A DNA stretch of 64,000 bases from Pyrinomonadaceae bacterium (GTDB lineage Bacteria; Acidobacteriota; Blastocatellia; Pyrinomonadales; Pyrinomonadaceae), in contig JAJQRF010000007.1 in NCBI GenBank assembly GCA_021228405.1, positions 186,794 to 250,793 of the forward strand, given 5' to 3'. Made by a program: the position numbers and the translations under genes. Shown here in pieces: positions 3,331 through 22,658 of the stretch. The notes under the pieces were generated by a model. That model was given only the letters and a program-made list of their open reading frames with translations. It had not been told where the DNA came from and made no database searches. Positions within the stretch are counted from its first letter, which is position 1; the number at the start of each line of letters is the position of its first letter.

Positions 3331-4706
3331 ATTTTCACGCACTCGCCGCGTTTGACGAATTGACCGCTTCCTTTTTCAACCAGACATTTGCCGTTTTCAA
3401 TGACGACGCGACCGCGTGAAAGGACGGTTTCGACCTTTCCTTTAATCTTTTTGCCCTCGTAGGTGCAGTAATCGACGTTCATATGCTGATTTTCGAGCGT
3501 GAAAACGTGTTCTTTTTCGGTGTCGAAAATCACGATGTCGGCATCGCTTCCGACGGCAATCGTGCCTTTTTTCGGAAACATTCCGAACATTTTTGCGGCG
3601 GCGGTCGAGGTTAATTCCACGAAACGATTGAGCGAAATATTATTTTCCAAAACACCGCCGTTGTAGATGAGTTCCATCCGGTATTCAACGCCCGGCGCGC
3701 CGTTCGGGATGAGCGAAAAATCGTCTTTACCGAGTTCTTTCTGCTCTTTCATACAAAACGGGCAATGATCGGTCGAGATTACTTGCAGATCGTCCATTTT
3801 CAAACCTTTCCAGAGATCGGCGTGATTATGTTTTTCGCGCAGAGGCGGAGTCATCACATATTTCGCACCTTCAAAAGTTTCGCCATAATCGTCAATTGAT
3901 AAAAACAGATATTGCGGACAAGTTTCGGCAAACGCGGGAATTCCGCGATCACGCGCCTGACGGACTTGATTGAGTGCGTCCGAACACGACAGGTGAACGA
4001 TGTAAACTGGCGTTTCCGCCATTTCCGCCAGCGCGATCGCCCGGTGAACGCCTTCGGCTTCGGCGATGGTCGGACGCGTCAGCGCGTGATATTTGGGCGC
4101 GAGTCTGCCCTGAGCCTTGAAACGCTTGATGATCTCGTTAATAACGATGCCGTTTTCGGCGTGCATACAAACCAGACCGCCGCGTTCGCCCGCCGCTGAC
4201 ATTGCACGGAAAATCGTCGCGTCGTCCGACAGAAAAACGCCCGGATAAGCCATAAAAAGCTTGAAAGACGTGATGCCTTCGTCGATCAATTGAAACATCT
4301 CTGACTTATTTTTATCTTCAAAATCGGTCGTAATCAGATGAAAACCGTAATCGATCACAGCTTTCCCCTGCGCCTTCTGGTGCCACTTGTCTGCACCGAG
4401 CAACATCGATTCGCCTTTATTTTGCACGGCAAAATCAATGATTGTCGTCGTTCCGCCGAAAGCCGCCGCACGAGTTCCCGTGAAAAAATCATCCGACGAT
4501 TCGGTTCCGCCAAACGGTAATTCCATATGCGTGTGCGGATCGATGCCGCCCGGAATCACCAATTTTCCCGAAGCATCAATAACCTTATTGGCTTCCATTT
4601 CGAGCTTTTTGCCGATCAGCGAAATTTGTTCGTCTTCGATCAAAATATCTGCCGTGTAATCATCGACCGCCGTCACGATTCGTCCGTTTTTGATTAGTGT
4701 TTTCAT
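3327..4706 (-). CDS. hydA: Dihydropyrimidinase / D-hydantoinase
   Basis: 459 residues of the cyclic amidohydrolase family, cytoplasmic, opening the ring of dihydrouracil/dihydrothymine or 5-substituted hydantoins. The metal site is visible: His58-x-His60, a carboxylatable Lys149 in TSFKLFMAYPG, His182 in HAENG, His238 in VHLS and Asp313 in STDHCPF. Length is normal. It heads the operon hydA, RibA-like, NCS1 permease. A class III aminotransferase at 7457-8761 could act on the beta-amino acid product but is not in the operon. The gene's 3' end is one of two copies of a 100-bp duplication created by insertion of the RM pair. The gene itself remains intact and its TGA overlaps the endonuclease ATG. 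Confidence 0.93.
   Translation of the reverse strand: MKTLIKNGRIVTAVDDYTADILIEDEQISLIGKKLEMEANKVIDASGKLVIPGGIDPHTHMELPFGGTESSDDFFTGTRAAAFGGTTTIIDFAVQNKGESMLLGADKWHQKAQGKAVIDYGFHLITTDFEDKNKSEMFQLIDEGITSFKLFMAYPGVFLSDDATIFRAMSAAGERGGLVCMHAENGIVINEIIKRFKAQGRLAPKYHALTRPTIAEAEGVHRAIALAEMAETPVYIVHLSCSDALNQVRQARDRGIPAFAETCPQYLFLSIDDYGETFEGAKYVMTPPLREKHNHADLWKGLKMDDLQVISTDHCPFCMKEQKELGKDDFSLIPNGAPGVEYRMELIYNGGVLENNISLNRFVELTSTAAAKMFGMFPKKGTIAVGSDADIVIFDTEKEHVFTLENQHMNVDYCTYEGKKIKGKVETVLSRGRVVIENGKCLVEKGSGQFVKRGECVKI
3334..3433. repeat. Direct repeat copy B: hydA 3' end
   Basis: 100 bp matching 1128-1227 at 97 of 100 positions. It lies inside intact hydA and marks the right boundary of the inserted RM pair. 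Similarity fades immediately past 3433, with only scattered matches for about 20 bp. Confidence 0.95.
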
Positions 4707-11156: not shown

Positions 11157-14100
11157 ATGAAAAAGAGAGAAGTCGCGAATGCTCGCTTGAGCTTCGCACT
11201 TGTATTTTTGTTTTTAGGATTGGCAACGGCTTTCGTTTTGTTGCCGAACCGCTTCCGTTCGCAGGCTGTCAGTAAAACGGCGCAAACGGATAAAAACACA
11301 CACGAAGAATCAGATTATTTTGATATTAGAAACGATAAAAAATCGGTCGAAATCTTAGACGGATTTCGCACACAGCAAGGAAGATCGGCAGTTCAGGTTG
11401 CCGACCAGCGCGACGAATTCGTGCGCGGCGAAAATTCGCTCAAAGCAAAAATCCCGACCTTGAAGGTCGAATACAACAAAGAACTCGGAAATCCCGAAAT
11501 CATCGCCCCCGATGTTCTTCAAGGTCGCGCATTGATGACCTCGCCTTCGAGTGCAAAACGCGCGGAAATTTTGAGAAACTTCATCAAAGAAAATAACAAT
11601 TTGGTCGGACTCTCAGTCGAACAGATCGACAATTTGAAAGTTACGGCTGATTACACGAATCCGAACGGCGAGCTTTCGTTTGCACGGCTCGAACAGTTTG
11701 TCGGCGACATTCCCGTTTTCCGCGCTGAAATCCGCGCCGGATTCAACAAACAAAACGCGATGTTCCGCGTCGTCAACAACCTCGCTTCCAACGCCGATTA
11801 CAATTCGGTTTCGGAAAATTTCGGCAATCCGCTCACGGCGGTCGAAAAAGCGGCGGGTTACATCGATTATCAATTAAAAGATTCCGACAGACAGTTCGAT
11901 TCGGCAAAATCGACCGGATTGAAAGCAGTTTTCGGACAAGGCGATTGGGCAACCACCGCCGAAAAAATGTATTTTCCGATCGAAGGCGGCGTTCTGCGTC
12001 CGTCGTGGCGCGTGCTGAACTGGCAGAAAGGCGATGCTTATTACGTCATTGTCGATGCCGAAACGGGCACGATGCTTTATCGTGAAAACATCACTCACAG
12101 CCAGACTCAATCGGCAACTTACAACGTTTACGCGGCAAACAACAATCTTCTCAAAGCATTAGGAAATCCTGCGCCGCTTGCCGCTCCCGGACTTCTCAAC
12201 CCGACACTCGGAACACAGGGAACGCTTCAACCGCGCACGAGCGTAACCTTCGTCGGTAACGAAGCGCCTTACAGCTTCAACAACCTCGGCTGGATCAATG
12301 ACGGTGCAAACGGCACGAACGGTCACACCGACGGAAACAACACGGCGGCAGGTGTTGACCGCGACACGACCAACGGAATTGACGCGCTCGTTTCCGGCAC
12401 GAACCGCGTTTTCAACTTCACCTACACCGTTCCCGCAGGTGCGAACAACACGGGCGGCGACGATCCTTTAACGCCGGCTTACCAAAACGGCGCATCGACG
12501 AACCTTTTCTACGTCACCAACCGTTATCACGACGAAACTTACCTCCTCGGCTTCACCGAACAGGCGCGCAACTTCCAAAACGACAACTTCGGTCGCGGCG
12601 GCGCGGCGGCTGACCGCATTTCGGCGGAAGCACAAGACAATACCGCAGGAACTTCGGCTTGTCCGACTGCCCCTTGCTTTAACAATGCAAACTTCTCGAC
12701 CCCGGCAGACGGCGGTCGCGGACGTATGCAGATGTATCTCTGGAATCAACCGACACCCGACCGTGACGGCGATTTCGACGCGGAGATCATCGTTCACGAA
12801 TTAACTCACGGACTTTTCGGACGCTTACACAACGGTGTCGGCGGAACGCAGGCAGGACAGATGAACGAAGGAAACTCCGATTTCTTCGCACACGTTATGC
12901 TGACACCTTACGAAGACCCGATCAATGCCGTTTCGGTCACGGGCGGTTACGCGACGCTCTTGCTTCGCGGCGCGGGTTTTACTTCAAACTACTATTACGG
13001 CATTCGCCGTTTCCCGAAAGCGGTTCTTTCATTTACGGGCGGTCCGAACAATCGTCCGCACAACCCGCTCACCTTCAAAGACATCGATCCGGCACAAATG
13101 AGCCTGACGGACGGCGCATTTTCACCTGCCTTTACGGGTTCGGCAACGGCAGTTCACGACGGCGGCGAAATCTGGAGCAGTATGCTTTGGGAAGTTCGCG
13201 CGAAATTGGTTCAAAGATTGGGTGCGGAAGCCGGAAACAGAAAAGTTCTCCAGCTCGTGATGGACGGAATGAAAGTTTCGCCGGCAAACCCGACGATGAT
13301 CCAGGAACGCAACGCGATTCTTTCGGCGGCATTGGCTAACGGAAACAGCAACGACATCGCTGACGTTTGGGCTGGTTTTGCAGTTCGCGGACTCGGTTTC
13401 AGCGCGACCAACCCGACCGGAAATACTGTGACGGAAGGCAACGATCTGCCGAACGCAGTGCTTGCCGCAAACGGATTTGCAGTTTCGGATGCCGCTCCGG
13501 GCGGTGACGGCGACGGATTTCCCGAACCGGGCGAAACCGTTCAATTAAGCGTTCCGGTCGTTAACAACACCGGAAACACCGTTTCAAATGTGGTCGTTTC
13601 GGTCACGAACGGCGGTTCGGCAAACTACGGAAGCATCGCCAACGGCGCGACCGTCACACAGCCGATCTCTTACACGATTCCGAGCGGCGCGGCTTGCGGT
13701 TCACTGCACACGGTCAGCATTTCGATCTCAAGCAACGTCGGTTCACAAGCGGCGCAGACACGTTCGTTCCGTCTTGGAAAACAAACTTTCAGCGGCACGA
13801 CGCAAAACTTTGACGGCGTAACCGCCCCGGCACTTCCCGTCGGCTGGTCGCAGGAAAGCAGCGGCGCAAACACGGGTTGGGTAACGAGCATTGTTTTGGC
13901 AGGCAGTCTGCCGAACGCGGCATTCTCGCCTTCGCCCGCATTGCCTGGACAAGCTGACCTGACCACTTCGGCAAACATTTCTTCGTCATCGGCACAACTT
14001 TCGTTCAAGAATTTCTACAATTCGGAAAGCACCTGGGACGGAATGGTTCTCGAAATTCAGATCGGCAACGGTGCGTATCAGGACATTCTGGCGGCGGGCG

Positions 14101-15197
14101 GCAGCTTCGTGAGCGGCGGTTATAACGCGGCAATCGATGCGCAAGCCGGAACTGCAATCGCAGGTCGTCAAGCCTGGACGGGCAGTTCGGTCACATTTGT
14201 CGATACGGTCGTTAATCTGCCGGCTTCGGCAAACGGTCAGGTCGTCAACTTCCGCTTCAGAGAAGCGTCGGATACGAACACGACCGCAACCGGAACTCCG
14301 GGACACCGCATTGACGATATTTCGTTGACGGGCGGAACGATGCTTTCAGGTTATGAATGCGTCGTCACACCGACAGCACCTATCAAATCACGCGCCGATT
14401 TCGACGGCGACGGTAAAACCGATATGTCGGTTTTCCGTCCTGCCGATGGAAATTGGTATATGCTTCGCTCGACAGCAGGTTTCGGTACGTCGAATTGGGG
14501 AATTAACACCGATAAACTTGTTCCGGGCGATTACGATGCCGACAACAAAGCGGATAGCGCAGTTTTCCGCAATGGTGTTTGGTATATTCTGAAATCCGGC
14601 GATAACAGTTTGCAGACCATTTCTTTTGGTCTGGGAACAGATGCCCCCGTCGCCGGAGATTATGACGGCGACAGCAAAAATGACGCGGCTGTTTTCCGCG
14701 CTTCCAACAATACCTGGTATATCCTGCGTTCGAGCGACAACGGTTTTGTGAGCGTTGCCTTCGGACAGAGCGGCGATGTGCCCGTCAGAGGCGATTTTGA
14801 CGGCGACGGTAAATCCGACATCACGGTTTTCCGTAACGGTCAATGGATCACCCGCAAATCTTCGGATTCAAGCGTTTCGATCACCTCGTTCGGATTGGCG
14901 ACCGACAAACTCGTTCCCGCCGATTATGACGGCGACGGCAAAGACGATATGGCGGTCTGGAGAGCGACGGACGGCGTTTGGTATATCCTGCGCAGTTCAA
15001 ACGGCTCGATCGACTTCGTTTCCTTCGGAACCAACGGCGACGTTCCCGTCCCGGGAGATTTCGACGGCGACGGTCGTGACGATCAGGCAGTTTACCGTAA
15101 CGGCACGTGGTATATGAACCGCTCCACCGCAGGCTTTGCGGCGGCGGCTTTCGGAAACGCAACCGATACGGCGATTCCTGCCACTTACATTCCTTAA
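11157..15197 (+). CDS. Secreted M36 (fungalysin-like) metalloprotease with FG-GAP/VCBS repeats
   Basis: 1346 residues. A hydrophobic N-terminal segment (about 12-30) serves as signal or anchor. A propeptide region to about residue 320 resembles the FTP/PepSY inhibitor type. The catalytic domain has HELTH at 547-551 and the third zinc ligand Glu571 in NEGNSDFF, as in fungalysins. After about residue 780 come a CARDB-like beta domain (PGETVQLSVPVVNNTGN) and a further beta-sandwich. From about 1078 to the end there are six FG-GAP-type repeats with calcium-binding DxDGDGxxD loops, probably a beta-propeller. Expected role: extracellular protein degradation. It has its own strong RBS and a terminator just downstream. 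Confidence 0.93.
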   Translation: MKKREVANARLSFALVFLFLGLATAFVLLPNRFRSQAVSKTAQTDKNTHEESDYFDIRNDKKSVEILDGFRTQQGRSAVQVADQRDEFVRGENSLKAKIPTLKVEYNKELGNPEIIAPDVLQGRALMTSPSSAKRAEILRNFIKENNNLVGLSVEQIDNLKVTADYTNPNGELSFARLEQFVGDIPVFRAEIRAGFNKQNAMFRVVNNLASNADYNSVSENFGNPLTAVEKAAGYIDYQLKDSDRQFDSAKSTGLKAVFGQGDWATTAEKMYFPIEGGVLRPSWRVLNWQKGDAYYVIVDAETGTMLYRENITHSQTQSATYNVYAANNNLLKALGNPAPLAAPGLLNPTLGTQGTLQPRTSVTFVGNEAPYSFNNLGWINDGANGTNGHTDGNNTAAGVDRDTTNGIDALVSGTNRVFNFTYTVPAGANNTGGDDPLTPAYQNGASTNLFYVTNRYHDETYLLGFTEQARNFQNDNFGRGGAAADRISAEAQDNTAGTSACPTAPCFNNANFSTPADGGRGRMQMYLWNQPTPDRDGDFDAEIIVHELTHGLFGRLHNGVGGTQAGQMNEGNSDFFAHVMLTPYEDPINAVSVTGGYATLLLRGAGFTSNYYYGIRRFPKAVLSFTGGPNNRPHNPLTFKDIDPAQMSLTDGAFSPAFTGSATAVHDGGEIWSSMLWEVRAKLVQRLGAEAGNRKVLQLVMDGMKVSPANPTMIQERNAILSAALANGNSNDIADVWAGFAVRGLGFSATNPTGNTVTEGNDLPNAVLAANGFAVSDAAPGGDGDGFPEPGETVQLSVPVVNNTGNTVSNVVVSVTNGGSANYGSIANGATVTQPISYTIPSGAACGSLHTVSISISSNVGSQAAQTRSFRLGKQTFSGTTQNFDGVTAPALPVGWSQESSGANTGWVTSIVLAGSLPNAAFSPSPALPGQADLTTSANISSSSAQLSFKNFYNSESTWDGMVLEIQIGNGAYQDILAAGGSFVSGGYNAAIDAQAGTAIAGRQAWTGSSVTFVDTVVNLPASANGQVVNFRFREASDTNTTATGTPGHRIDDISLTGGTMLSGYECVVTPTAPIKSRADFDGDGKTDMSVFRPADGNWYMLRSTAGFGTSNWGINTDKLVPGDYDADNKADSAVFRNGVWYILKSGDNSLQTISFGLGTDAPVAGDYDGDSKNDAAVFRASNNTWYILRSSDNGFVSVAFGQSGDVPVRGDFDGDGKSDITVFRNGQWITRKSSDSSVSITSFGLATDKLVPADYDGDGKDDMAVWRATDGVWYILRSSNGSIDFVSFGTNGDVPVPGDFDGDGRDDQAVYRNGTWYMNRSTAGFAAAAFGNATDTAIPATYIP

Positions 15198-15239
15198 CTG
15201 CAAACTCTGTGAAGGATGATTTTTATCCTTCAATTTTCT

Positions 15240-15278
15240 CGGAAGTTCTTAGTCCAAGAACTTCCGATTTTTTTTTTG
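15240..15278 (+). terminator. Intrinsic terminator of the M36 protease gene
   Basis: Stem CGGAAGTTCTT / AAGAACTTCCG (15240-15250 and 15256-15266) with a 5-nt loop, followed by A and a run of ten T. It starts 43 nt after the stop codon. Confidence 0.92.
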
Positions 15279-15475
15279 CGGTTCATTACAGTGTTCGGAG
15301 TTCAAGATTTATCTTATATTCCGCTTAAATAATTCAAACCGAAGTTTGAACTGTAAGCGTGTTCAGAGTTCAAACTTCAGTTTGAATTTCGCTAAATAAC
15401 TTCAAACGCGAAACGCACTTTGAACTATAAACAAATTACACATTTTCATATTTTCGGCACAATTCTTCGGAAAAT

Positions 15476-15790
15476 GGTCTTTATTTTTTGAAAAGAAGTC
15501 TTTGTTTTTACTGAAGAAGTCTTTATTTTTGCGAAAGATGTCTTTATTTTTTGAAAAGAAGTCTTTATTTACGCCGAAGAAGTCTTTATTTTTGCGAAAG
15601 ATGTCTTTACTTTGGAAAAAATAAAGACTTCTTTGCTGAAAGTAAAGACTATTTGATTAAATTAAAAGACATCTTTCGCAAAAATAAAGACTATTCGATT
15701 AAATTAAAAGATTAAATCGGAAAAAATAAAGGCTTCTTTTTTAAAAGTAAGCTTTAATTTCGCCGAAATAAGCTTTAATTCGACACAATT
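15476..15790. repeat. 21-bp degenerate tandem array with inverted continuation
   Basis: Seven consecutive 21-bp units at 15476-15622 share the core GTCTTTATTTTT followed by a variable half ending in GAAAGA or GAAGA. From about 15620 to 15790 the same words appear in the opposite sense (AATAAAGACTTCTTT, AAAGACATCTTTCGC), so the region could fold back on itself. Being a multiple of three, the units stay open in several frames (K-K-S-L-F-x-x on the plus strand) but no start codon with an RBS was found. The rest of the 15279-16040 gap is AT-rich, with short inverted words (TTCAAACTTCAGTTTGAA near 15370) and a REPIN-like element. Confidence 0.85.
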
Positions 15791-15904
15791 TGGCACCTAT
15801 TTTTCCGCAATTGTCTTTTACTTTTCAGAATTTATCTCAAAAGCTGTTTAATCGCAGTTATAAATGTCAATTCTTTCGACGTATTGAAAACGGATATTAA
15901 GTTT

Positions 15905-15968
15905 TGAGTTCCGCCTTCAGGCGGCTTTACCCAAGCGGAAAGCCTTCTGAAGAAGCAACTCCGGACAC
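15905..15968. repeat. REPIN-like palindromic repeat, copy 2
   Basis: Begins GAGTTCCGCCTTCAGGCGG and ends GAAGAAGCAACTCCGGAC. The outer GAGTT and AACTC pair with each other, and the inner hairpins match the copies at 5979-6040 and 28325-28384. Confidence 0.82.
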
Positions 15969-16043
15969 GGCTCAGAAATTTTAATTTCGTTCGACTGCGT
16001 AAAATTATTTTTTTTCAATAAACCGATAAATTTATTGTTACCT

Positions 16044-16072
16044 TTGACTTGCTGACGGCGACTTTATATTAG
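16044..16072 (+). promoter_or_regulatory. Sigma-70-type promoter for a short RNA / leader
   Basis: -35 TTGACT at 16044-16049, a 17-bp spacer, and -10 TATTAG at 16067-16072 (TATATT overlaps it with a shorter spacer). Predicted start near 16079. It would transcribe the structured segment that ends at the terminator 16129-16200. Confidence 0.55.
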
Positions 16073-16078
16073 AGTCTG

Positions 16079-16200
16079 AAATTTTACAGCCTCTGACGAT
16101 CAAAATGAGTCCTCCTCGACTCTGATTACAACGACAAAAGATCAATGAAAAAGGTGATGCCTTTTCCGGTGATCTTTTGTTGCTGTTTTTAGTTTTTTTT
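16079..16200 (+). ncRNA. Candidate small RNA or attenuator leader with an anti-Shine-Dalgarno loop
   Basis: About 120 nt lie between a promoter-like sequence and an intrinsic terminator, with no credible reading frame. A hairpin GAGTC-CTCCTC-GACTC (16107-16122) exposes CCTCCT, the same sequence as the 16S rRNA anti-Shine-Dalgarno. The stretch 16108-16116 is perfectly complementary to the M36 protease RBS (11145-11153). An Hfq-like gene is present at 39708-39995. Known sRNAs with C-rich loops block ribosome binding this way. The alternative is an attenuated leader of the sigma-factor gene, which starts 40 nt past the terminator. Confidence 0.45.
16129..16200 (+). terminator. Intrinsic terminator / attenuator upstream of the sigma-factor fusion gene
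   Basis: Long stem: CAACGACAAAAGATCA (16129-16144) pairs with TGATCTTTTGTTGCTG (16170-16185) with two mismatches. An inner stem GAAAAAGG/CCTTTTCC lies inside it. T runs follow at 16186-16190 and 16193-16200. Since no upstream gene within 900 bp reads into it, it either ends a short RNA or controls read-through into 16241. Confidence 0.75.
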
Positions 16201-16240
16201 AAGAATAGTTGTTAATCTTTTTGAGTAAGTAAATATACCA

Positions 16241-19200
16241 ATGGAACTCAAAAATCACGAAGAGATTTTTATCGGCTCATATGCGCGCTTACGCGGTTGG
16301 GCAATTCAAATTGCTCAAAAAGATCAGGAATTGGCGGAAGATTTGCTTCACGACGCGTTTATTCAATTTACGCGTGCACAACCCGATCTGAACAACATCG
16401 GCAACACCGACGCTTATTTATACGGCGTGATTAAAAATCTTCATCTTTCGCATTTGCGCAAAAAAGTGCGCCGCGATAAATACGCGCCGACGATCATCGA
16501 CTTTGAAACCTTGCGGCTCGGTTTGCGAAACGCGCAGATGCTCGACAATTTTCAAACGCAGGAAGAATTGAAAAGAATTTGCTATTTCCTCTGTTTGCGA
16601 AAGGAAAGCTCAAAATCGGCAAGCGTGATGATCCTCCGATTTTTTCACGGTTATTTTCCGAGCGAGATCGCCGAAGTGATGCGGGCAACGCCGCAAGTCG
16701 TCAAAGTGCGGCTCAACTCGGCGCGCAACGAAGCCAAAACCGTGATCGAAAACAACGATCTGATCGAGGCGATCGAGAAAAAGCTTCCCCCCGAAATCAT
16801 CGTGAAAAACGAATTTCGCAGCAGTGCCGATCTCACCCGCGCACTTGCCGGAATGATCTTCAGTTCTACCTACGGGAGCTGTTTGAGCAGTGAAGAATTA
16901 AAAACGCTTTATTCCTCCGGAACGAAGGAAGCAATCGACACGAAAACGCTGGCGCATCTTGTCAGTTGTCGAAAATGTATTGATAACGTCAACGAATTAT
17001 TGGGTCTTTTACCTCTGTCCGAAAGATATTCGATTGATTTTATCGGGAAAGATGACGGCGGTTCGGGGAATCGCCCGGGAAATGGTGGCAGTATGAATGG
17101 AAATTTTGACGAAAAGGTTCTCCCGATTTGGCGGTGCAGTTCGCGGGAGATTTTTGAACACCAACCGCGCCAATTAATCGTTTCGGTCAACGGCGATAAT
17201 GAAAAATCGCAAACCATCGAAAGCCGCCTGACATCGATCAAACTCAGCATAAAACTCGCGGAATCGCCGCAGTTTATCGAAATTTTCAGCGAACAAATGG
17301 TTCGTTTCGCAACCTTTTATTTAGCCGACCTCGAAAATCTCGAAAGTCAAAAATTCTCCTGCGATTTCAGCGACGACCGAAAAATCTCGCTTAAGCTGAC
17401 CAAGGACACTTCCGAACTTCTGATCGAAACGATCTACGAAGACCCGAATTTTTCAACCCAAACGGAAACCATCAGCGAAGACAAAACTTTTGAAGAATTT
17501 CTCAACGAACTCAAACCCGAAACCGTCGAAAACGAAATCTTCGGCGGACTTCTGGAAAGCAAAACGAAACGAAACGATTCGTTTACCGCGAAACTCAAGA
17601 ATTCGTTTTTCCCGTCGTTCGCAGGTTTTAAAACCGCGTTTGCGGGCGGTTCGATCGCCGTTTTGCTCATCGCGGCGATCTTTTTCACACGAATGTTCGT
17701 GCTCGTGCCGACCATTTCCGCGACGGAAATAATCGAAAAAACCGCCGCCGCCGAACAATCGAACGAAAACGACACGGAAAGAATCATCCGCCGCACGTTC
17801 AATTTTGAAGAAAAGAACGCGAACGGCGAAGTCGTCAAAAAACGCAGGATCGAATTTTTCAGCGATGCCGTCAGAAAAATCTCCGTCCGCCGTTTGTTCG
17901 ACGAAAACGGCAAACTCATCGCCGGAGAATGGCGCAGAAAAGACGGCGTAAGCACGACTTACACGACCGGAAAAGTTTCCGAACTGCGGCTTTACAAAAC
18001 CGAAAACGAACTGCTTAACGGAAATCTGGAAAACATCTGGCAGCTTTCGGTGTCGGCAAAAGGTTTTGAATCGCTCGTCGGTTCGCCCGAAAACGTGACG
18101 GTCGAAGAATCGAACAGCGAATATCAAATAAATTTCGCGCCAAAAACGGAAAATCTCATCACGAAAGCCGTTCTGCACATCAACCGCGATCTGCGAACCG
18201 ATAAATTGATCCTGGTCGTCAACCAGAACAATTCCGCCCGCGAGTTTTCGTTTACCGAAACCGTTTTTGAACAGAAACCGCGCGCAACCGTCGAAAATTC
18301 GGCTTTTGAGCCGAATGCGGAATTTGTCAGAAACGCAAAAACCGTCGGAAAAACGATCGCGCCGAACGAAAAAGTCGAAACGAACGAAGCCGTGCCTGAA
18401 GAAGGCACAGTGAAAGAAAATGCGCCGAACGCGGCAACATTACCGAACGCCGCAACTTCGGAGCTGGAAGTAAAAGTTTTACAGCTTCTCAACAATGTCA
18501 ACGCGCTTTCGGGCGATCAGATCAACATTACAAAAACCGCCGACGGAAAAATTCAGATCAAAGGAATCGTCGATGCCAAAAACCGCAAGGACGAAATTAT
18601 CAATGCTTTGTCCGAAGTGCGCGGAAATCCGGCGGTTTCGATAAATCTTCAAACCGCCGAGGAAGCCGCCAAAAACAAACCGTCGAAAACGAACGGCGGG
18701 ACGCTCGAAAGTATTTCCGTCGAATCGAAAAATTCGATTCCGGCGGGCGAGATTCTGCGAAATTATTACTCGGCGCAAGGTTTGTCGGGCGAGCGGATCG
18801 AAGCGGAAATCCGCCGTTATTCGTCGAACGCGCTTTCAAAATCTTCGCAAGTCCGCCGTTCCGCACTGCAAATGAAGCAGATCGCCGAACGTTTTTCGAC
18901 TTCCGAACTCGAAAAAATGGATGAAGCGACACGCAACAACTGGCGCAAACTGATTAAACAAAACGCCGCGAATCTGGCACAAAGTTCCGAAAGTTTGCGC
19001 GGCGATCTGCGAAACGGTTTGAATGTCGAAGCAGGAAGCGGCGGCGGAAGCGTCAACGCGGCAAGCGATGCCGACCTGATCCGCGCCGCAAAAAGACTTT
19101 TCGAGCTTTCGATGGCGATCGACGGCGACGTTCGCGCTTCGTTCAGCAATTCAGGCGGAAGCCGCGGAAGTATTCCCGTGAAATCGGGCAGATTTTCGAG

Positions 19201-19243
19201 CAATCTTTCGGAAATTATCGGTCTGGCGCGACAGATCAGATAG
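16241..19243 (+). CDS. ECF sigma factor fused to an anti-sigma-like zinc motif, a membrane segment and an extracytoplasmic domain
   Basis: 1000 residues. Residues 1-165 are a sigma-70 family ECF factor: region 2 with ELAEDLLHDAFIQFTR and DAYLYGVIKNLHLSHLRKK, region 4 with FFHGYFPSEIAEVMRATPQVVKVRL. At about 238-246, HLVSCRKC fits the H-x3-C-x2-C zinc motif of anti-sigma factors. A hydrophobic segment at about 467-490 is a likely single membrane span. The remaining 500 residues would be outside: a beta-rich part, a Pro/Asn-rich linker, a BON-like segment at about 740-805, and a Gly/Ser-rich helical end. This is a one-protein sigma/anti-sigma/sensor arrangement. Release by proteolysis is the obvious model but is inferred. 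A TonB-dependent receptor gene follows at 148 bp. Confidence 0.85.
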   Translation: MELKNHEEIFIGSYARLRGWAIQIAQKDQELAEDLLHDAFIQFTRAQPDLNNIGNTDAYLYGVIKNLHLSHLRKKVRRDKYAPTIIDFETLRLGLRNAQMLDNFQTQEELKRICYFLCLRKESSKSASVMILRFFHGYFPSEIAEVMRATPQVVKVRLNSARNEAKTVIENNDLIEAIEKKLPPEIIVKNEFRSSADLTRALAGMIFSSTYGSCLSSEELKTLYSSGTKEAIDTKTLAHLVSCRKCIDNVNELLGLLPLSERYSIDFIGKDDGGSGNRPGNGGSMNGNFDEKVLPIWRCSSREIFEHQPRQLIVSVNGDNEKSQTIESRLTSIKLSIKLAESPQFIEIFSEQMVRFATFYLADLENLESQKFSCDFSDDRKISLKLTKDTSELLIETIYEDPNFSTQTETISEDKTFEEFLNELKPETVENEIFGGLLESKTKRNDSFTAKLKNSFFPSFAGFKTAFAGGSIAVLLIAAIFFTRMFVLVPTISATEIIEKTAAAEQSNENDTERIIRRTFNFEEKNANGEVVKKRRIEFFSDAVRKISVRRLFDENGKLIAGEWRRKDGVSTTYTTGKVSELRLYKTENELLNGNLENIWQLSVSAKGFESLVGSPENVTVEESNSEYQINFAPKTENLITKAVLHINRDLRTDKLILVVNQNNSAREFSFTETVFEQKPRATVENSAFEPNAEFVRNAKTVGKTIAPNEKVETNEAVPEEGTVKENAPNAATLPNAATSELEVKVLQLLNNVNALSGDQINITKTADGKIQIKGIVDAKNRKDEIINALSEVRGNPAVSINLQTAEEAAKNKPSKTNGGTLESISVESKNSIPAGEILRNYYSAQGLSGERIEAEIRRYSSNALSKSSQVRRSALQMKQIAERFSTSELEKMDEATRNNWRKLIKQNAANLAQSSESLRGDLRNGLNVEAGSGGGSVNAASDADLIRAAKRLFELSMAIDGDVRASFSNSGGSRGSIPVKSGRFSSNLSEIIGLARQIR

Positions 19244-19264
19244 TTACGGAAAGCGCAATTTTAG

Positions 19265-19314
19265 GAAATTCAGGGGAAAAGCGGTTTGATTTACAAAACT
19301 TTACCCTGAATTTC
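19265..19314. other. Hairpin between the sigma-fusion and receptor genes
   Basis: An 11-bp perfect inverted repeat GAAATTCAGGG / CCCTGAATTTC separated by 28 nt, without a clean T run. It may be a weak terminator or mRNA-stabilising stem in the 148-bp gap. Confidence 0.45.
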
Positions 19315-19391
19315 TCAAAAATTTGTCAGAAATTGCAGTTTTTCATTGCTCATTTCATCAATAAAAACTAAAATCCGATAATAAAAATTTA

Positions 19392-22300
19392 ATGTTGTCG
19401 GTCAAATCTTTCATAAAACTCGTATCTCTCGCGGCGTTGCTGGTAATTTCGGCAAACCAATCGTTATTTGCTCAAAATTCGACGCAGATCAGCGGAATCG
19501 TCGTTGACCAGAACGGCGACGTGATCCCGGCGGTCGAAATCACGATCCTGAACAACAGCGGAACGCTGGAAAGAAAGGTCGTGAGTGATGCCGAGGGATT
19601 TTTCACGTTTCCCTTTCTGCCCGCCGACGAATATTCGCTGAAGATCACCAAAGACGGTTTCGACCCCGCCGAAGTGCAGAATTTATTGCTTTCCGAAGAA
19701 AATTCGCGGCAGTTTAAGATCGAATTAAAGATCAATTCGCTTTCCGAAGTCATCAAAGTCGAAGATGAAGCGGTCAAAGTCGATGAAAAAATCTCGAATT
19801 CGACGAATTTCGACCGAACGGCAATCGAGAGATTTCCCGTCAATGGTCGCAATCATCAATCGTTGATAAATCTCGTTCCAGGCGTTGTTTTTACGCCGGT
19901 CGACAATAAAAATCTCGGTCAGTTCAGCTCGAACGGACAACGTACGAACGCCAATTATTTTTCGGTTGACGGTGTTTCGGCAAATTTCGGCACGACAAAT
20001 TACGATTTTCTCGGGCAAACCGGAAGCGGTTCGATTCCGGCGCGCAACATTCAAGGCGGACTCGACAATCTCGTTTCAACCGCAAGCTTACAGGAAGTTA
20101 CGATAAACACGCTCGATTTTTCGCCGTCGGGCGGAAAAATGCCCGGCGCAAATATTTCGTTCGTGACCAGATCGGGAACGGATAATTTCTCGTTTTCGGC
20201 TTTTGAAAATTTCCGCAACGGCGTTTTCAATGCCAAAGATTATTTCGACCTCGAAAAACCGCCGCACGTTTTCAATAATTTCGGCGGCTCGTTCGGCGGA
20301 CCGCTGTTCTTTACGAATAATAAGGATTCAAAAAACAAAGCCTTCTTTTTTCTGGCGTTTGAAGGAAAAAGTTTCACGTTGCCGCAACCGACCATCCTGA
20401 AGGAAGTTCCGTCGCTCGATGTCCGCCAAAATCCCGAAAACCGTGTTGCCGAAGCGATTTATAACGCGTTTCCGCTGCCGAATGTAGAAAAGGAAAAAGA
20501 CAGTCAAGCCACGCTGATTCCGCAAGCGGTTTCGGTCAGCGATAACGTTTTGAATACGTTTTTCCCGAAAACCGAATTGTTCCGGGCGACTTATTCCGAC
20601 CCGAACAGTTCGGAAACTTACAGTTTACGGCTCGATCAGATCATCAATTCAAAGTTTTCATTTTTCGCCAGATTCAACTATTCGCCGTCGTTTTCGGAAA
20701 ACCGAAATCCGGCGAATCTTTCGTCTTTCATTACCGGGAGGCAGATCACGCGCACCCTCACGTTCGGTGCGACACAGGCTTTTTCAAGCAATTTCGTCAA
20801 CGATTTCAGGTTTAATATCAGCACTCAAAAAGCCTCGACAAAACACGAATTCGACGGGCTTTACGGAGGGATTTTACCCGATAGATCAATCTTTATTCCG
20901 AACGCTTTCAAGGAAAACGATACACATCTGCGCTTTTCCTTGAACGGTTTTTCCGATTCGCTGAATTTTATTTACGGAAACTTTGCCGAAAACGAAATGC
21001 GCCAACTGAATTTTTCCGATAATCTGGCTTATTCCTTTTCAGATCACGAAGTAAAACTGGGTTTCGATTTTCGCCGTCTTTCACCGAAATTGCGCGTTTC
21101 GGGTTACGGGATAAACTACGATTTCAATTCGGCGGATGCCGTTTCGTTCGGCATTGCCGACCGCGTTTCCTTCTATAAAAATCCGCGTGTCGATACAAGG
21201 GTTTTGTCCGTTTCTTCGTATATTCAGGACAATTGGAAAGTAAATCGACGGCTGAATCTGGTTTACGGCGTGCGCTGGGAAATAAATCCCGCGCCTTCAA
21301 CCGCCGAAAAAGATGCGCTTTTCACTCTCGAAACCGCACCCGACCTGAGCCGCGCCGACCAGACAAGGTTACAGCTTGCGGCATCGGGAACACCTTATTA
21401 TCAAACGAATTTCCGCAATTTTGCGCCGCGTTTCGGGGCGGCATACGAGGTTTTCGAGAAGAACGGTAAGAGTTTGGTCTTACGCGGCGGCATCGGAACT
21501 TTTTACGATCTCGGGCAATCGCAGTTTAACGAAATCGCTTCGCCTTACGAACATTCAAATTTTCTTGCGGAAAATCTGATTTTGCCGATCAACAATTTCC
21601 CACTCAGTTTTCTAACAAACGAAGCCGATCCGAATCGGCGTTTAGCGGTAGTTTCCGCCACGCCCGATTATCAATCGCCCCGCACTTATTTCTGGAGCAC
21701 GACCGCGCAGTTAAAACTCGGAAAAGAGATTTTTTCAGCCTCATATGTCGGCGGCGCAGGACGCAATCTGCAACGAACGCTGACGCTCAATCTAAGTGAA
21801 CAGAACGGCATTTCAAACGTATATTTCAGCAATAAATTTTCAAAAATAATTTATATCGACAATGCCTATTCGTCCGATTATCACGCTTTTCAGTTTCAAT
21901 ATTCGAGAAGTTTGGCGCAGGGCTTGAACGCTTTTGCAAACTATAGTTGGGCACATTCGATCGACAATAATTCTTCGGACAGCAATCTTTCCGTACCTTT
22001 CAATTACGCCGTTTCAAACGACCGCGGAAGCTCGGATTTCGACGTTCGGCATACTTTAAATATCGGATTTTCCTATGATGTTCCGCGTCTGAAAGCGAAT
22101 AATTTCGTCGGCAAGTTAATGAATGACTGGACTCTCGGCGGAATGTTCTTTGCGCGAACGGGCTTGCCTTTCGATGTAAAAACCACCGAGTTCGACGCGC
22201 TGACAAACAGCTACATAACCCGCCGCGCCAATGTCAAAAGCGGTGTGCCTTTAACCATTAAAACGGCGGAAAGTCCGACGGGAATCAAATTGAATGCGGA

Positions 22301-22658
22301 TGCTTTTTACAAACCGCTGAATCAATCCGCGCAAGGAAATCTCGGCAGAAACGCCTTTACGGGACCTGCGGTTTGGCAGTTTGATTCGTCGCTCGGCAGA
22401 AAATTTAATCTGACCGAAAAGCTCAAATTGAATCTACGCGTCGAAGTTTACAACGTCTTTAATCGTCCGAATTTCAGCAATCCTTACGCGCAGATTTCAT
22501 ATCAGGGAAAAGACCGAATCGTTCCCGAAAATTTCGGGATTCCGACCCGAACGATGGCTCGCGGCTATGCCGGAGCGGAACCGACGGGCGGAGTTTCGCC
22601 GATCTTTCAGCTTGGCGGCGCACGGCAGATTCAATTCAACGCCCAACTCAAATTTTAA
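19392..22658 (+). CDS. TonB-dependent receptor with N-terminal carboxypeptidase-regulatory domain
   Basis: 1088 residues. A signal peptide to about residue 28 (ends SLFAQ) is followed by a CarboxypepD_reg/Cna-B-like beta domain to about 115 (GIVVDQNGDVIPAVEITI), a plug domain (NGRNHQSLINLVPG), and a long outer-membrane beta-barrel ending in phenylalanine (FNAQLKF), the signal for barrel assembly. This Oar-like architecture is abundant in Acidobacteriota and takes up large substrates, often peptides or glycans. No TonB box is obvious. It follows the membrane-tethered sigma factor at 148 bp, which suggests a regulatory pair similar in logic to FecIRA. The stop lies 2 nt from the end of the convergent ntrY gene. 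Confidence 0.9.
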   Translation: MLSVKSFIKLVSLAALLVISANQSLFAQNSTQISGIVVDQNGDVIPAVEITILNNSGTLERKVVSDAEGFFTFPFLPADEYSLKITKDGFDPAEVQNLLLSEENSRQFKIELKINSLSEVIKVEDEAVKVDEKISNSTNFDRTAIERFPVNGRNHQSLINLVPGVVFTPVDNKNLGQFSSNGQRTNANYFSVDGVSANFGTTNYDFLGQTGSGSIPARNIQGGLDNLVSTASLQEVTINTLDFSPSGGKMPGANISFVTRSGTDNFSFSAFENFRNGVFNAKDYFDLEKPPHVFNNFGGSFGGPLFFTNNKDSKNKAFFFLAFEGKSFTLPQPTILKEVPSLDVRQNPENRVAEAIYNAFPLPNVEKEKDSQATLIPQAVSVSDNVLNTFFPKTELFRATYSDPNSSETYSLRLDQIINSKFSFFARFNYSPSFSENRNPANLSSFITGRQITRTLTFGATQAFSSNFVNDFRFNISTQKASTKHEFDGLYGGILPDRSIFIPNAFKENDTHLRFSLNGFSDSLNFIYGNFAENEMRQLNFSDNLAYSFSDHEVKLGFDFRRLSPKLRVSGYGINYDFNSADAVSFGIADRVSFYKNPRVDTRVLSVSSYIQDNWKVNRRLNLVYGVRWEINPAPSTAEKDALFTLETAPDLSRADQTRLQLAASGTPYYQTNFRNFAPRFGAAYEVFEKNGKSLVLRGGIGTFYDLGQSQFNEIASPYEHSNFLAENLILPINNFPLSFLTNEADPNRRLAVVSATPDYQSPRTYFWSTTAQLKLGKEIFSASYVGGAGRNLQRTLTLNLSEQNGISNVYFSNKFSKIIYIDNAYSSDYHAFQFQYSRSLAQGLNAFANYSWAHSIDNNSSDSNLSVPFNYAVSNDRGSSDFDVRHTLNIGFSYDVPRLKANNFVGKLMNDWTLGGMFFARTGLPFDVKTTEFDALTNSYITRRANVKSGVPLTIKTAESPTGIKLNADAFYKPLNQSAQGNLGRNAFTGPAVWQFDSSLGRKFNLTEKLKLNLRVEVYNVFNRPNFSNPYAQISYQGKDRIVPENFGIPTRTMARGYAGAEPTGGVSPIFQLGGARQIQFNAQLKF

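Follow-up and report, generated by a model that had tools for sequence, protein, structure and literature searches.

A one-piece ECF sigma factor, zinc anti-sigma domain and outer module encoded beside a TonB-dependent receptor in a Pyrinomonadaceae bacterium

Introduction

Several groups of extracytoplasmic function (ECF) sigma factors carry fused regulatory extensions, among them ECF243 with IutY, the groups ECF48, ECF52 and ECF53 with a zinc finger and membrane helices, ECF36 and others (PMC8999054). Cleavage of IutY by Prc and RseP yields a ~23 kDa fragment with the sigma part (PMC5411451, PMC9249621), and ECF52, described as exclusive to Actinobacteria, carries a carbohydrate-binding module (PMC5826349). 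In a related kind of circuit RseB and MucB are the periplasmic partners of the anti-sigma factors RseA and MucA; binding of lipid by MucB sets MucA free (PMC7400510). Here we describe a gene encoding a sigma factor, a zinc anti-sigma domain, a membrane helix and a large outer part in a single chain, found in a 64,000-nucleotide stretch of DNA from a Pyrinomonadaceae bacterium of the Acidobacteriota (GCA_021228405.1, contig JAJQRF010000007.1, positions 186,794 to 250,793 of the forward strand). The whole stretch is referred to as the window, and positions are counted from its first letter.

The window protein resembles IutY of Pseudomonas putida (ECF243, receptor IutA) in combining a sigma factor, one membrane helix and an outer part in a single chain whose gene adjoins that of a TonB-dependent receptor. 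IutY, however, is described as a protein of 374 residues in which the membrane helix immediately follows the sigma part and the outer part is FecR-like, and the available text mentions no zinc brake or beta domain; the window protein differs by a class I zinc motif, a beta domain, an outer part of predicted LolA/RseB fold with a BON-like segment, and a partner receptor that shows no STN domain. No Pfam match to FecR was found in the window protein at E<=1, although a divergent FecR domain is conceivable. With ECF52, ECF48 and ECF53 (SCO4117) it shares the fusion of a sigma factor to a zinc-finger anti-sigma-like extension and a membrane helix and, with ECF52, the presence of an outer part. These groups are described as actinobacterial, and ECF52 contains a proline-rich part as well as a carbohydrate-binding module, whereas no Pfam family of such modules matched the window protein at E<=1.

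A third likeness is to RpoE-RseA-RseB and AlgU-MucA-MucB, where a sigma factor, a membrane anti-sigma factor and a periplasmic LolA-like regulator work in one circuit. There the parts are separate proteins, as opposed to one chain here, and RseA, as described, does not depend on a zinc motif. A fourth likeness is to separate pairs of an ECF sigma factor and a zinc anti-sigma protein in the same phylum (L039, L040, L041, L091, L093 and L115, our locus handles), with a homologous membrane and outer part and the same receptor type; these are made of two genes, and in the sigma tree they fall outside the group of the fused proteins. Since IutY and ECF52 are precedents, the one-piece kind itself is not new, but the combination of a predicted LolA/RseB-type outer domain, a probable zinc brake in cis and a steady receptor partner looks new. 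Among the open-licence papers listed, no report of this fused family was found, nor any on the regulation of such receptors in this phylum; the sigma part may have a group number in Casas-Pastor 2021.

A conserved gene in one piece

From N- to C-terminus the protein comprises sigma regions 2 and 4, zinc anti-sigma helices and a beta domain; a membrane helix then leads to an outer part of about 510 residues. The features of the gene and of its receptor neighbour are as follows.

16241..19243, forward strand: one-piece sigma / anti-sigma / sensor gene, 1000 aa, an open reading frame (ORF) without internal stop
16256..16474, forward strand: sigma region 2, residues 6-78 (PF04542, predicted helices, profile match to solved ECF sigma factors)
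16550..16750, forward strand: sigma region 4, residues 104-170 (TIGR02937 span, PF08281 below cut-off, model)
16823..17026, forward strand: predicted class I zinc anti-sigma helices, residues 195-262 (motif alignment, model)
16880-16882, forward strand: codon of the presumed ligand C214
16955-16957, forward strand: codon of the presumed ligand H239
16967-16969, forward strand: codon of the presumed ligand C243
16976-16978, forward strand: codon of the presumed ligand C246
17105..17455, forward strand: conserved cytoplasmic beta domain, residues 289-405 (model, alignment)
17651..17707, forward strand: single membrane helix, residues 471-489 (hydropathy)
17723..18358, forward strand: outer domain 1, residues 495-706, with a predicted fold of the LolA/LolB/RseB/MucB kind (AlphaFold2 model compared by Foldseek and VIA-align)
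18458..18655, forward strand: weak BON-like segment of alpha-beta-beta-alpha-beta order, residues 740-805 (model topology, Pfam match below cut-off)
18746..19237, forward strand: C-terminal long helices, residues 836-999 (model)
19392..22658, forward strand: TonB-dependent receptor (CarboxypepD_reg + OMP_b-brl_4 type), presumably a target and possibly the source of the signal (Pfam, neighbourhood)

A preliminary description, made from the letters and ORFs of this DNA, had placed an ECF sigma factor, an anti-sigma zinc motif, a single membrane span and a sensor part of about 500 residues in one chain. This order holds across 27 homologous rows (26 fused relatives extracted and the window protein); the hydropathy scan gives one hydrophobic helix at 471-489, and the outer part spans 490-1000, or ~510 residues. 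The search for the same architecture among relatives which that description had proposed yielded 24 uninterrupted genes in 20 genomes, 14 of them in the class of the window and 6 in a family outside it (f16). The remaining three rows (L100, L042, L103) are broken or cut.

In a first search of 60 relatives 45 gave some match, mostly to the sigma part alone, and full-length matches were found at 8 places in 7 genomes including that of the window, with E-values down to 7.5e-169 and 32-36% identity to the window protein. A profile search then gave matches in 27/162 genomes of the class and in 13/396 genomes drawn evenly across the phylum, counts which include partial and split forms and come from overlapping samples; one match (G142:C45, a 447-aa frame) was left out of the row set. 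A low-sensitivity scan of wider contigs for short peptide patterns found only L042, 63% identical. Measured against L042, non-synonymous divergence (dN) is well below synonymous divergence (dS) in every module, with dS near saturation. The genome of the window has 25 Sigma70_r2 matches, and the window gene is the sole one in a frame of >600 residues. The fused gene is real, conserved and coherent.

The outer module travels with one receptor type

The gene following at 148 nt (19392-22658) has CarboxypepD_reg and OMP_b-brl_4 domains above the Pfam cut-off and Plug below it, which confirms the type of the TonB-dependent receptor that had been suggested as sensor or target. By BLAST to the window receptor, such a gene adjoins the fused gene (23 loci) or lies next but one (3 loci) in all 26 testable fused neighbourhoods. 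The next-but-one cases, L031-L033, have a small gene in between, and a barrel domain was present in both that were scanned (L031, L033). For L096 and L042 the receptor is read only as a fragment at a contig end, and Pfam confirmed the receptor type in 4/4 loci checked (L036, L037, L105, L112). A receptor also stands beside 9/9 separate anti-sigma-like proteins carrying the same outer module, so that the module is accompanied by it in 35/35 testable loci, as against 0/4 relatives without the module (L038, L102, L088, L089). The counts are made without L103 and L087, which lie at contig ends, and the sensor-less group without L090, a sigma gene alone with no receptor next to it; the contig of L038 extends only 1.4 kb beyond the gene, and the Fisher test on the linkage ignores kinship among loci.

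The genome of the window has ~32 loci for receptors of the neighbour's type. Apart from the window gene, none of its region-2 genes (24) has a same-strand receptor as the next gene (judged by distance), and the nearest is separated from one by three genes, an anti-sigma gene included. At L117:3460-10059, also in this genome, an ECF sigma / zinc-motif pair is found two genes upstream of a further receptor of that kind.

Sigma and receptor genes overlap by 4 nt in three loci (L035, L105, L106) and are 12-17 nt apart in five more, and the fused gene and the receptor are therefore very likely co-transcribed in these eight. We consider the receptor a highly probable target of the sigma factor, and the chances that it supplies the signal about even.

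The sigma part and its probable brake

Region 2 is identified by PF04542 (E 6.8e-8, above the cut-off) and by profile matches to solved ECF sigma factors (best E 2.4e-10), and NCBIfam TIGR02937 covers residues 14-166 with 46.4 bits against a cut-off of 42.9. PF08281, the region 4 family, is matched in 11/27 members at E<=0.1 (best 1.8e-7). Loss of regions 2 and 4, named in the preliminary description as what would point to a non-sigma role, is not seen, as both are recognisable. Structure prediction had been proposed for residues 170-460, and a model of residues 1-455 was built from 27 sequences, with a mean predicted local distance difference test score (pLDDT) of 83.5 and a predicted template modelling score (pTM) of 0.81; it contains the sigma domains, zinc helices at 195-262 and the beta domain at 289-400. 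To judge from its sequence, the N-terminal part is almost certainly a working sigma factor.

H-x3-C-x2-C is the mark of zinc-binding class I anti-sigma domains (PMC7406223). The window protein has it as H239-x3-C243-x2-C246, in agreement with the motif first noticed there, and it is complete in 26/27 aligned rows, with H239 and C246 invariant in 27/27 and C243 present in 26/27. A putative fourth ligand had been overlooked: position 214, which lies 25 residues upstream of the motif His in the window protein, is Cys in 25 rows and His in the other 2 (27/27), and the separate anti-sigma-like proteins that bear the motif have a His at the same distance in 7/7 cases. This spacing resembles that of RsrA and ChrR. 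Given the motif and the predicted fold, the zinc helices very probably act as a brake on the sigma part in cis.

Also missed earlier was the beta domain between the zinc helices and the membrane, which has 8 invariant columns in the 27 rows. In the window protein it gave no Pfam match at E<=0.1, and the VIA-align matches (Z<=3.5, assorted beta sandwiches) were read as no fold assignment. Besides the main membrane helix, the hydropathy scan picked up a second stretch in L035, L098, L100 and L107. An RseA-like exposed tail or degron in the membrane helix was considered and dropped, because [ILVF]AA occurs in only 11/27 rows.

The outer module

The outer part appears to begin with a LolA/RseB-fold domain, absent from the preliminary description and predicted from an AlphaFold2 model of residues 495-1000 (31 sequences, pLDDT 87.3, pTM 0.56). 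On this model VIA-align matches outer domain 1 to LolA (4mxt, Z 14.8), RseB (2v43, Z 12.1) and MucB (6in8, Z 11.4), and Foldseek matches it to LolA with E 1.8e-7; ependymin-related proteins and VioE are also among the fold matches. No match of the domain to LolA or RseB was found at the sequence level, and a profile of the LolA-like domain gave nothing at E<=1 against solved structures.

The BON-like segment proposed earlier fared less clearly. The alpha-beta-beta-alpha-beta order in the model at ~740-805 agrees with it, but PF04972 stays below the cut-off (E 0.027, 15.2 bits against 27) and lends it weak support. A YscD Bon-like domain was matched in 4/25 members (best E 4.9e-4).

Phylogeny and natural variants

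The sigma tree was built without L100 and L042, whose frames are broken, and without 3/19 background ECF loci, and was midpoint-rooted; alignments A3 and A4 were made without L103 and L042 and A5 without L103, and A3 takes in 6/9 separate anti-sigma-like proteins (without L041, L092 and L115). The tree splits 31 rows (25 fused, 2 of the family f8, L038, L102, L087 and L090) from 22 others with support 100/100. The sigma factors of the separate pairs fall among the 22 others, though their outer modules are homologous to those of the fused proteins. Two sigma lineages are thus combined with one and the same outer module and receptor partner, and this lends independent support to the sensor-receptor link.

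Nine separate anti-sigma-like proteins carry the same outer module. From ORF calls an ECF gene lies directly upstream in six of these loci (L039, L040, L041, L091, L093, L115), L113 and L114 have none, and L092 is cut by the contig end. L091 and L092 lack H-x3-C-x2-C, and in L039-L041 the stretch from the zinc motif to the membrane helix is too short for a beta domain.

Two loci of another family of the class, L088:7739-12727 and L089:6759-11719, show a different order: the anti-sigma gene, with a zinc motif, a beta-domain match and a membrane helix, precedes the sigma gene, and a CHAT-TPR gene comes after. Given a long branch in the tree, both fission and an ancestral state are compatible with this f8 arrangement. 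L038:1426-2460 (344 residues) and L102:1508-2347 (279) are fusions of sigma and zinc brake lacking membrane helix, sensor and receptor, with no trace of the remaining modules nearby. At L116:7678-14439 a fragment that matches the beta domain has two neighbours, a receptor-sized gene and the gene of a separate 407-residue protein whose start resembles a zinc motif; this is perhaps a decayed or rearranged copy.

A promoter-like motif in one subclade

When the leaders of fused genes were searched for spaced word pairs without a preset pattern, the best pair occurred in 8 of 25 leaders, compared with <=6 in each of 60 shuffles, and the best 5+5 pair in 7 of 26 leaders, compared with <=3 in each of 200 shuffles. 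GTGGGTT-N14-GCGTCT is exact in 7/7 leaders of one subclade (support 99/99), shortly before the start, and the bases between its halves are not conserved.

Across the 162 class genomes this pattern has 26 exact matches, 14 in the 7 subclade genomes and 12 in the other 155. Half of the 14 are those at the gene itself, and the other 7 are spread over 6 genomes: 5 lie outside ORFs with a called start <=400 nt away, and 2 lie inside ORFs. In three genomes of a single genus (G146, G034, G147) one of the 5 stands before a gene for an exported protein of ~515 residues; these three proteins are related, and both that were scanned contain DUF4214. Of the other two, one is followed by an exported protein whose FecR match is below cut-off, the other by a doubtful ORF and, after that, an exported protein. 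Two of the 5 called starts fall inside the motif, so the true start probably lies further on. Among the 12 matches elsewhere, 9 are inside ORFs and 1 has a called start <=400 nt away. From this placement of the motif we consider the subclade sigma factors very likely to switch on their own operon and, with it, a few genes for exported proteins.

Word pairs in the other groups (9 leaders of f16, 3 of genus g10 and 7 others), judged without shuffles, showed nothing outstanding. Rfam gave only sub-threshold microRNA or snoRNA models for the leader, and a scan for sigma-70 type promoters over 15190-19420 returned 1 site, on the other strand, fewer than in shuffles.

Proposed mechanism and alternatives

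The window protein is probably an ECF sigma factor tethered to the membrane in a latent state: inhibited in cis, it would be released by a signal from outside and would then control the receptor operon. The zinc anti-sigma helices would hold the N-terminal sigma part inactive, while the LolA/RseB-fold and BON-like module may sense the state of the partner receptor or a ligand bound by the module. An outer signal would expose the outer part to proteolysis, and a site-1 protease followed by RseP would cut at the membrane, by analogy with IutY. A further step would disengage or degrade the brake left on the freed fragment, and the freed sigma factor would transcribe its own operon, including the receptor gene, together with a small set of exported proteins, as the subclade motif suggests. 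On the IutY analogy we regard activation by proteolysis as somewhat favoured, and an RseP homologue is encoded in the same genome.

Because the zinc brake and the beta domain would stay on the fragment after a membrane cut, a second step would be required. The release of an N-terminal part of 20 kDa, which the preliminary description had put forward as a test, would need this step too, since the membrane-cut fragment still carries the brake. Candidates are processive degradation that stops at the sigma domain and a switch held by the beta domain. As a tentative picture, the protein might be an RpoE-RseA-RseB-like circuit in one chain, wired to one receptor, in which activation frees a still-braked sigma factor and a second step of a new kind turns it on.

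A number of observations weigh against the proposal of a tethered sigma factor freed by an outer signal. Release from the membrane would by itself leave the brake attached, and L038 and L102 retain sigma factor and brake without any membrane helix; in L108 no membrane helix exceeds the hydropathy threshold, and L037 lacks C243. Region 4 taken alone (PF08281) is below the Pfam cut-off in the window protein, so its assignment rests on the whole-domain TIGR02937. Foldseek found nothing at E<=0.001 for the whole N-terminal model: its best row is an unrelated type VI complex, with sigma/anti-sigma complexes next at E 0.2-0.4. VIA-align scores sigma factors no higher than Z 6.7, below the value of 8 under which the tool advises caution, with a root-mean-square deviation that is large across both domains and 2.4-3.8 Å for region 2 alone; the sigma assignment therefore rests on sequence profiles, with which the model agrees. 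With a pTM of 0.56, the mutual placement of the outer domains is not confident. In known cell-surface signalling the STN domain of the receptor docks with the transducer (PMC11637429); STN is absent among the 7 Pfam families matched at E<=1 on the window receptor, and among those at E<=0.01 on four other receptors, so docking of the known kind does not apply as such. Finally, the window gene falls outside the motif subclade and its own leader reaches at best 8/13 positions, so that operon activation is extended to it from its relatives, and a reversed control pattern also had 2 matches in the 7 subclade genomes (11 in the others).

The alternative that survives best is that the protein senses envelope lipid: the LolA/RseB-like domain would bind a lipid, a mislocalised lipoprotein or lipid A, and the receptor would be a target only. 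The predicted fold of outer domain 1, with its high VIA-align scores to LolA, RseB and MucB, speaks for this, as does the release of MucA upon lipid binding by MucB (PMC7400510). LolA and RseB are, however, not matched at the sequence level, the fold is common to proteins of other roles such as ependymin-related proteins and VioE, and a receptor accompanying the module in 35/35 testable loci would be unexpected for a general envelope-stress sensor. We consider this explanation unlikely, if plausible, and that the outer domain would bind a lipid or acyl chain at all is, from the model, similarly doubtful.

Alternatively, the brake could be a conformational switch that opens on a redox, metal or domain-movement signal, with the sigma factor working while tethered. 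A four-ligand zinc site of class I type, as the sequence suggests, would suit such a switch; L038 and L102 keep sigma factor and brake without any membrane part, and a covalently joined brake cannot diffuse off. The 510-residue outer module is nevertheless conserved, constrained and tied to a receptor, which points to an outer signal, and proteolysis operates in IutY, the sole experimentally characterised case according to PMC8999054. This makes a purely conformational switch rather improbable.

Much weaker is the view that the sigma factor is degenerate and its N-terminal part a scaffold without a role in transcription. It could draw on region 4 being under the Pfam cut-off, on the long branch (1.29) between the clade and ordinary ECF factors and on the missing motif before the window gene; the sigma part, though, has the lowest dN of the modules compared (0.115), and the subclade genes are preceded by a conserved promoter-like motif. 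From conservation and the motif, loss of sigma function was judged very unlikely. An assembly or gene-calling artefact joining two genes, for which one might cite the broken frames of L042 and L100 in draft assemblies, is ruled out by the same joint in 24 uninterrupted homologues of 20 genomes.

If the window protein is indeed a tethered sigma factor inhibited in cis, it poses the question of how a sigma factor can be rid of a brake that is part of the same chain. In this family a single kind of sensor module is coupled to a single receptor type within an operon, its subclade supplies a concrete promoter-like sequence, and natural dissections of the same parts exist in fused, separate, membrane-less and sensor-less form.

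Surrounding DNA

Upstream of the sigma gene lies a gene for an M36 fungalysin-type metallopeptidase with C-terminal FG-GAP repeats (11157-15197). The 1-kb gap between the two contains dense imperfect inverted repeats at 15473-15731, built on AGTCTTTATTT...GCGAAAGA, for which Rfam gave sub-threshold microRNA models only. Further on, at 16128-16186 and 54 nt upstream of the sigma gene's start codon, there is a hairpin with 27-nt arms (81% complementary) followed by T-runs; by eye it is terminator- or attenuator-like, and a terminator scan did not list it on that strand.

Near the beginning of the window, a 119-nt direct repeat (1125-1243 and 3331-3449, 91% identical) forms the 3' end of both a dihydropyrimidinase-like gene and the neighbouring methyltransferase-like gene, as named from reading the sequence. 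This has the look of an insert of restriction-modification-like type that captured, or made a second copy of, the end of the gene it entered.

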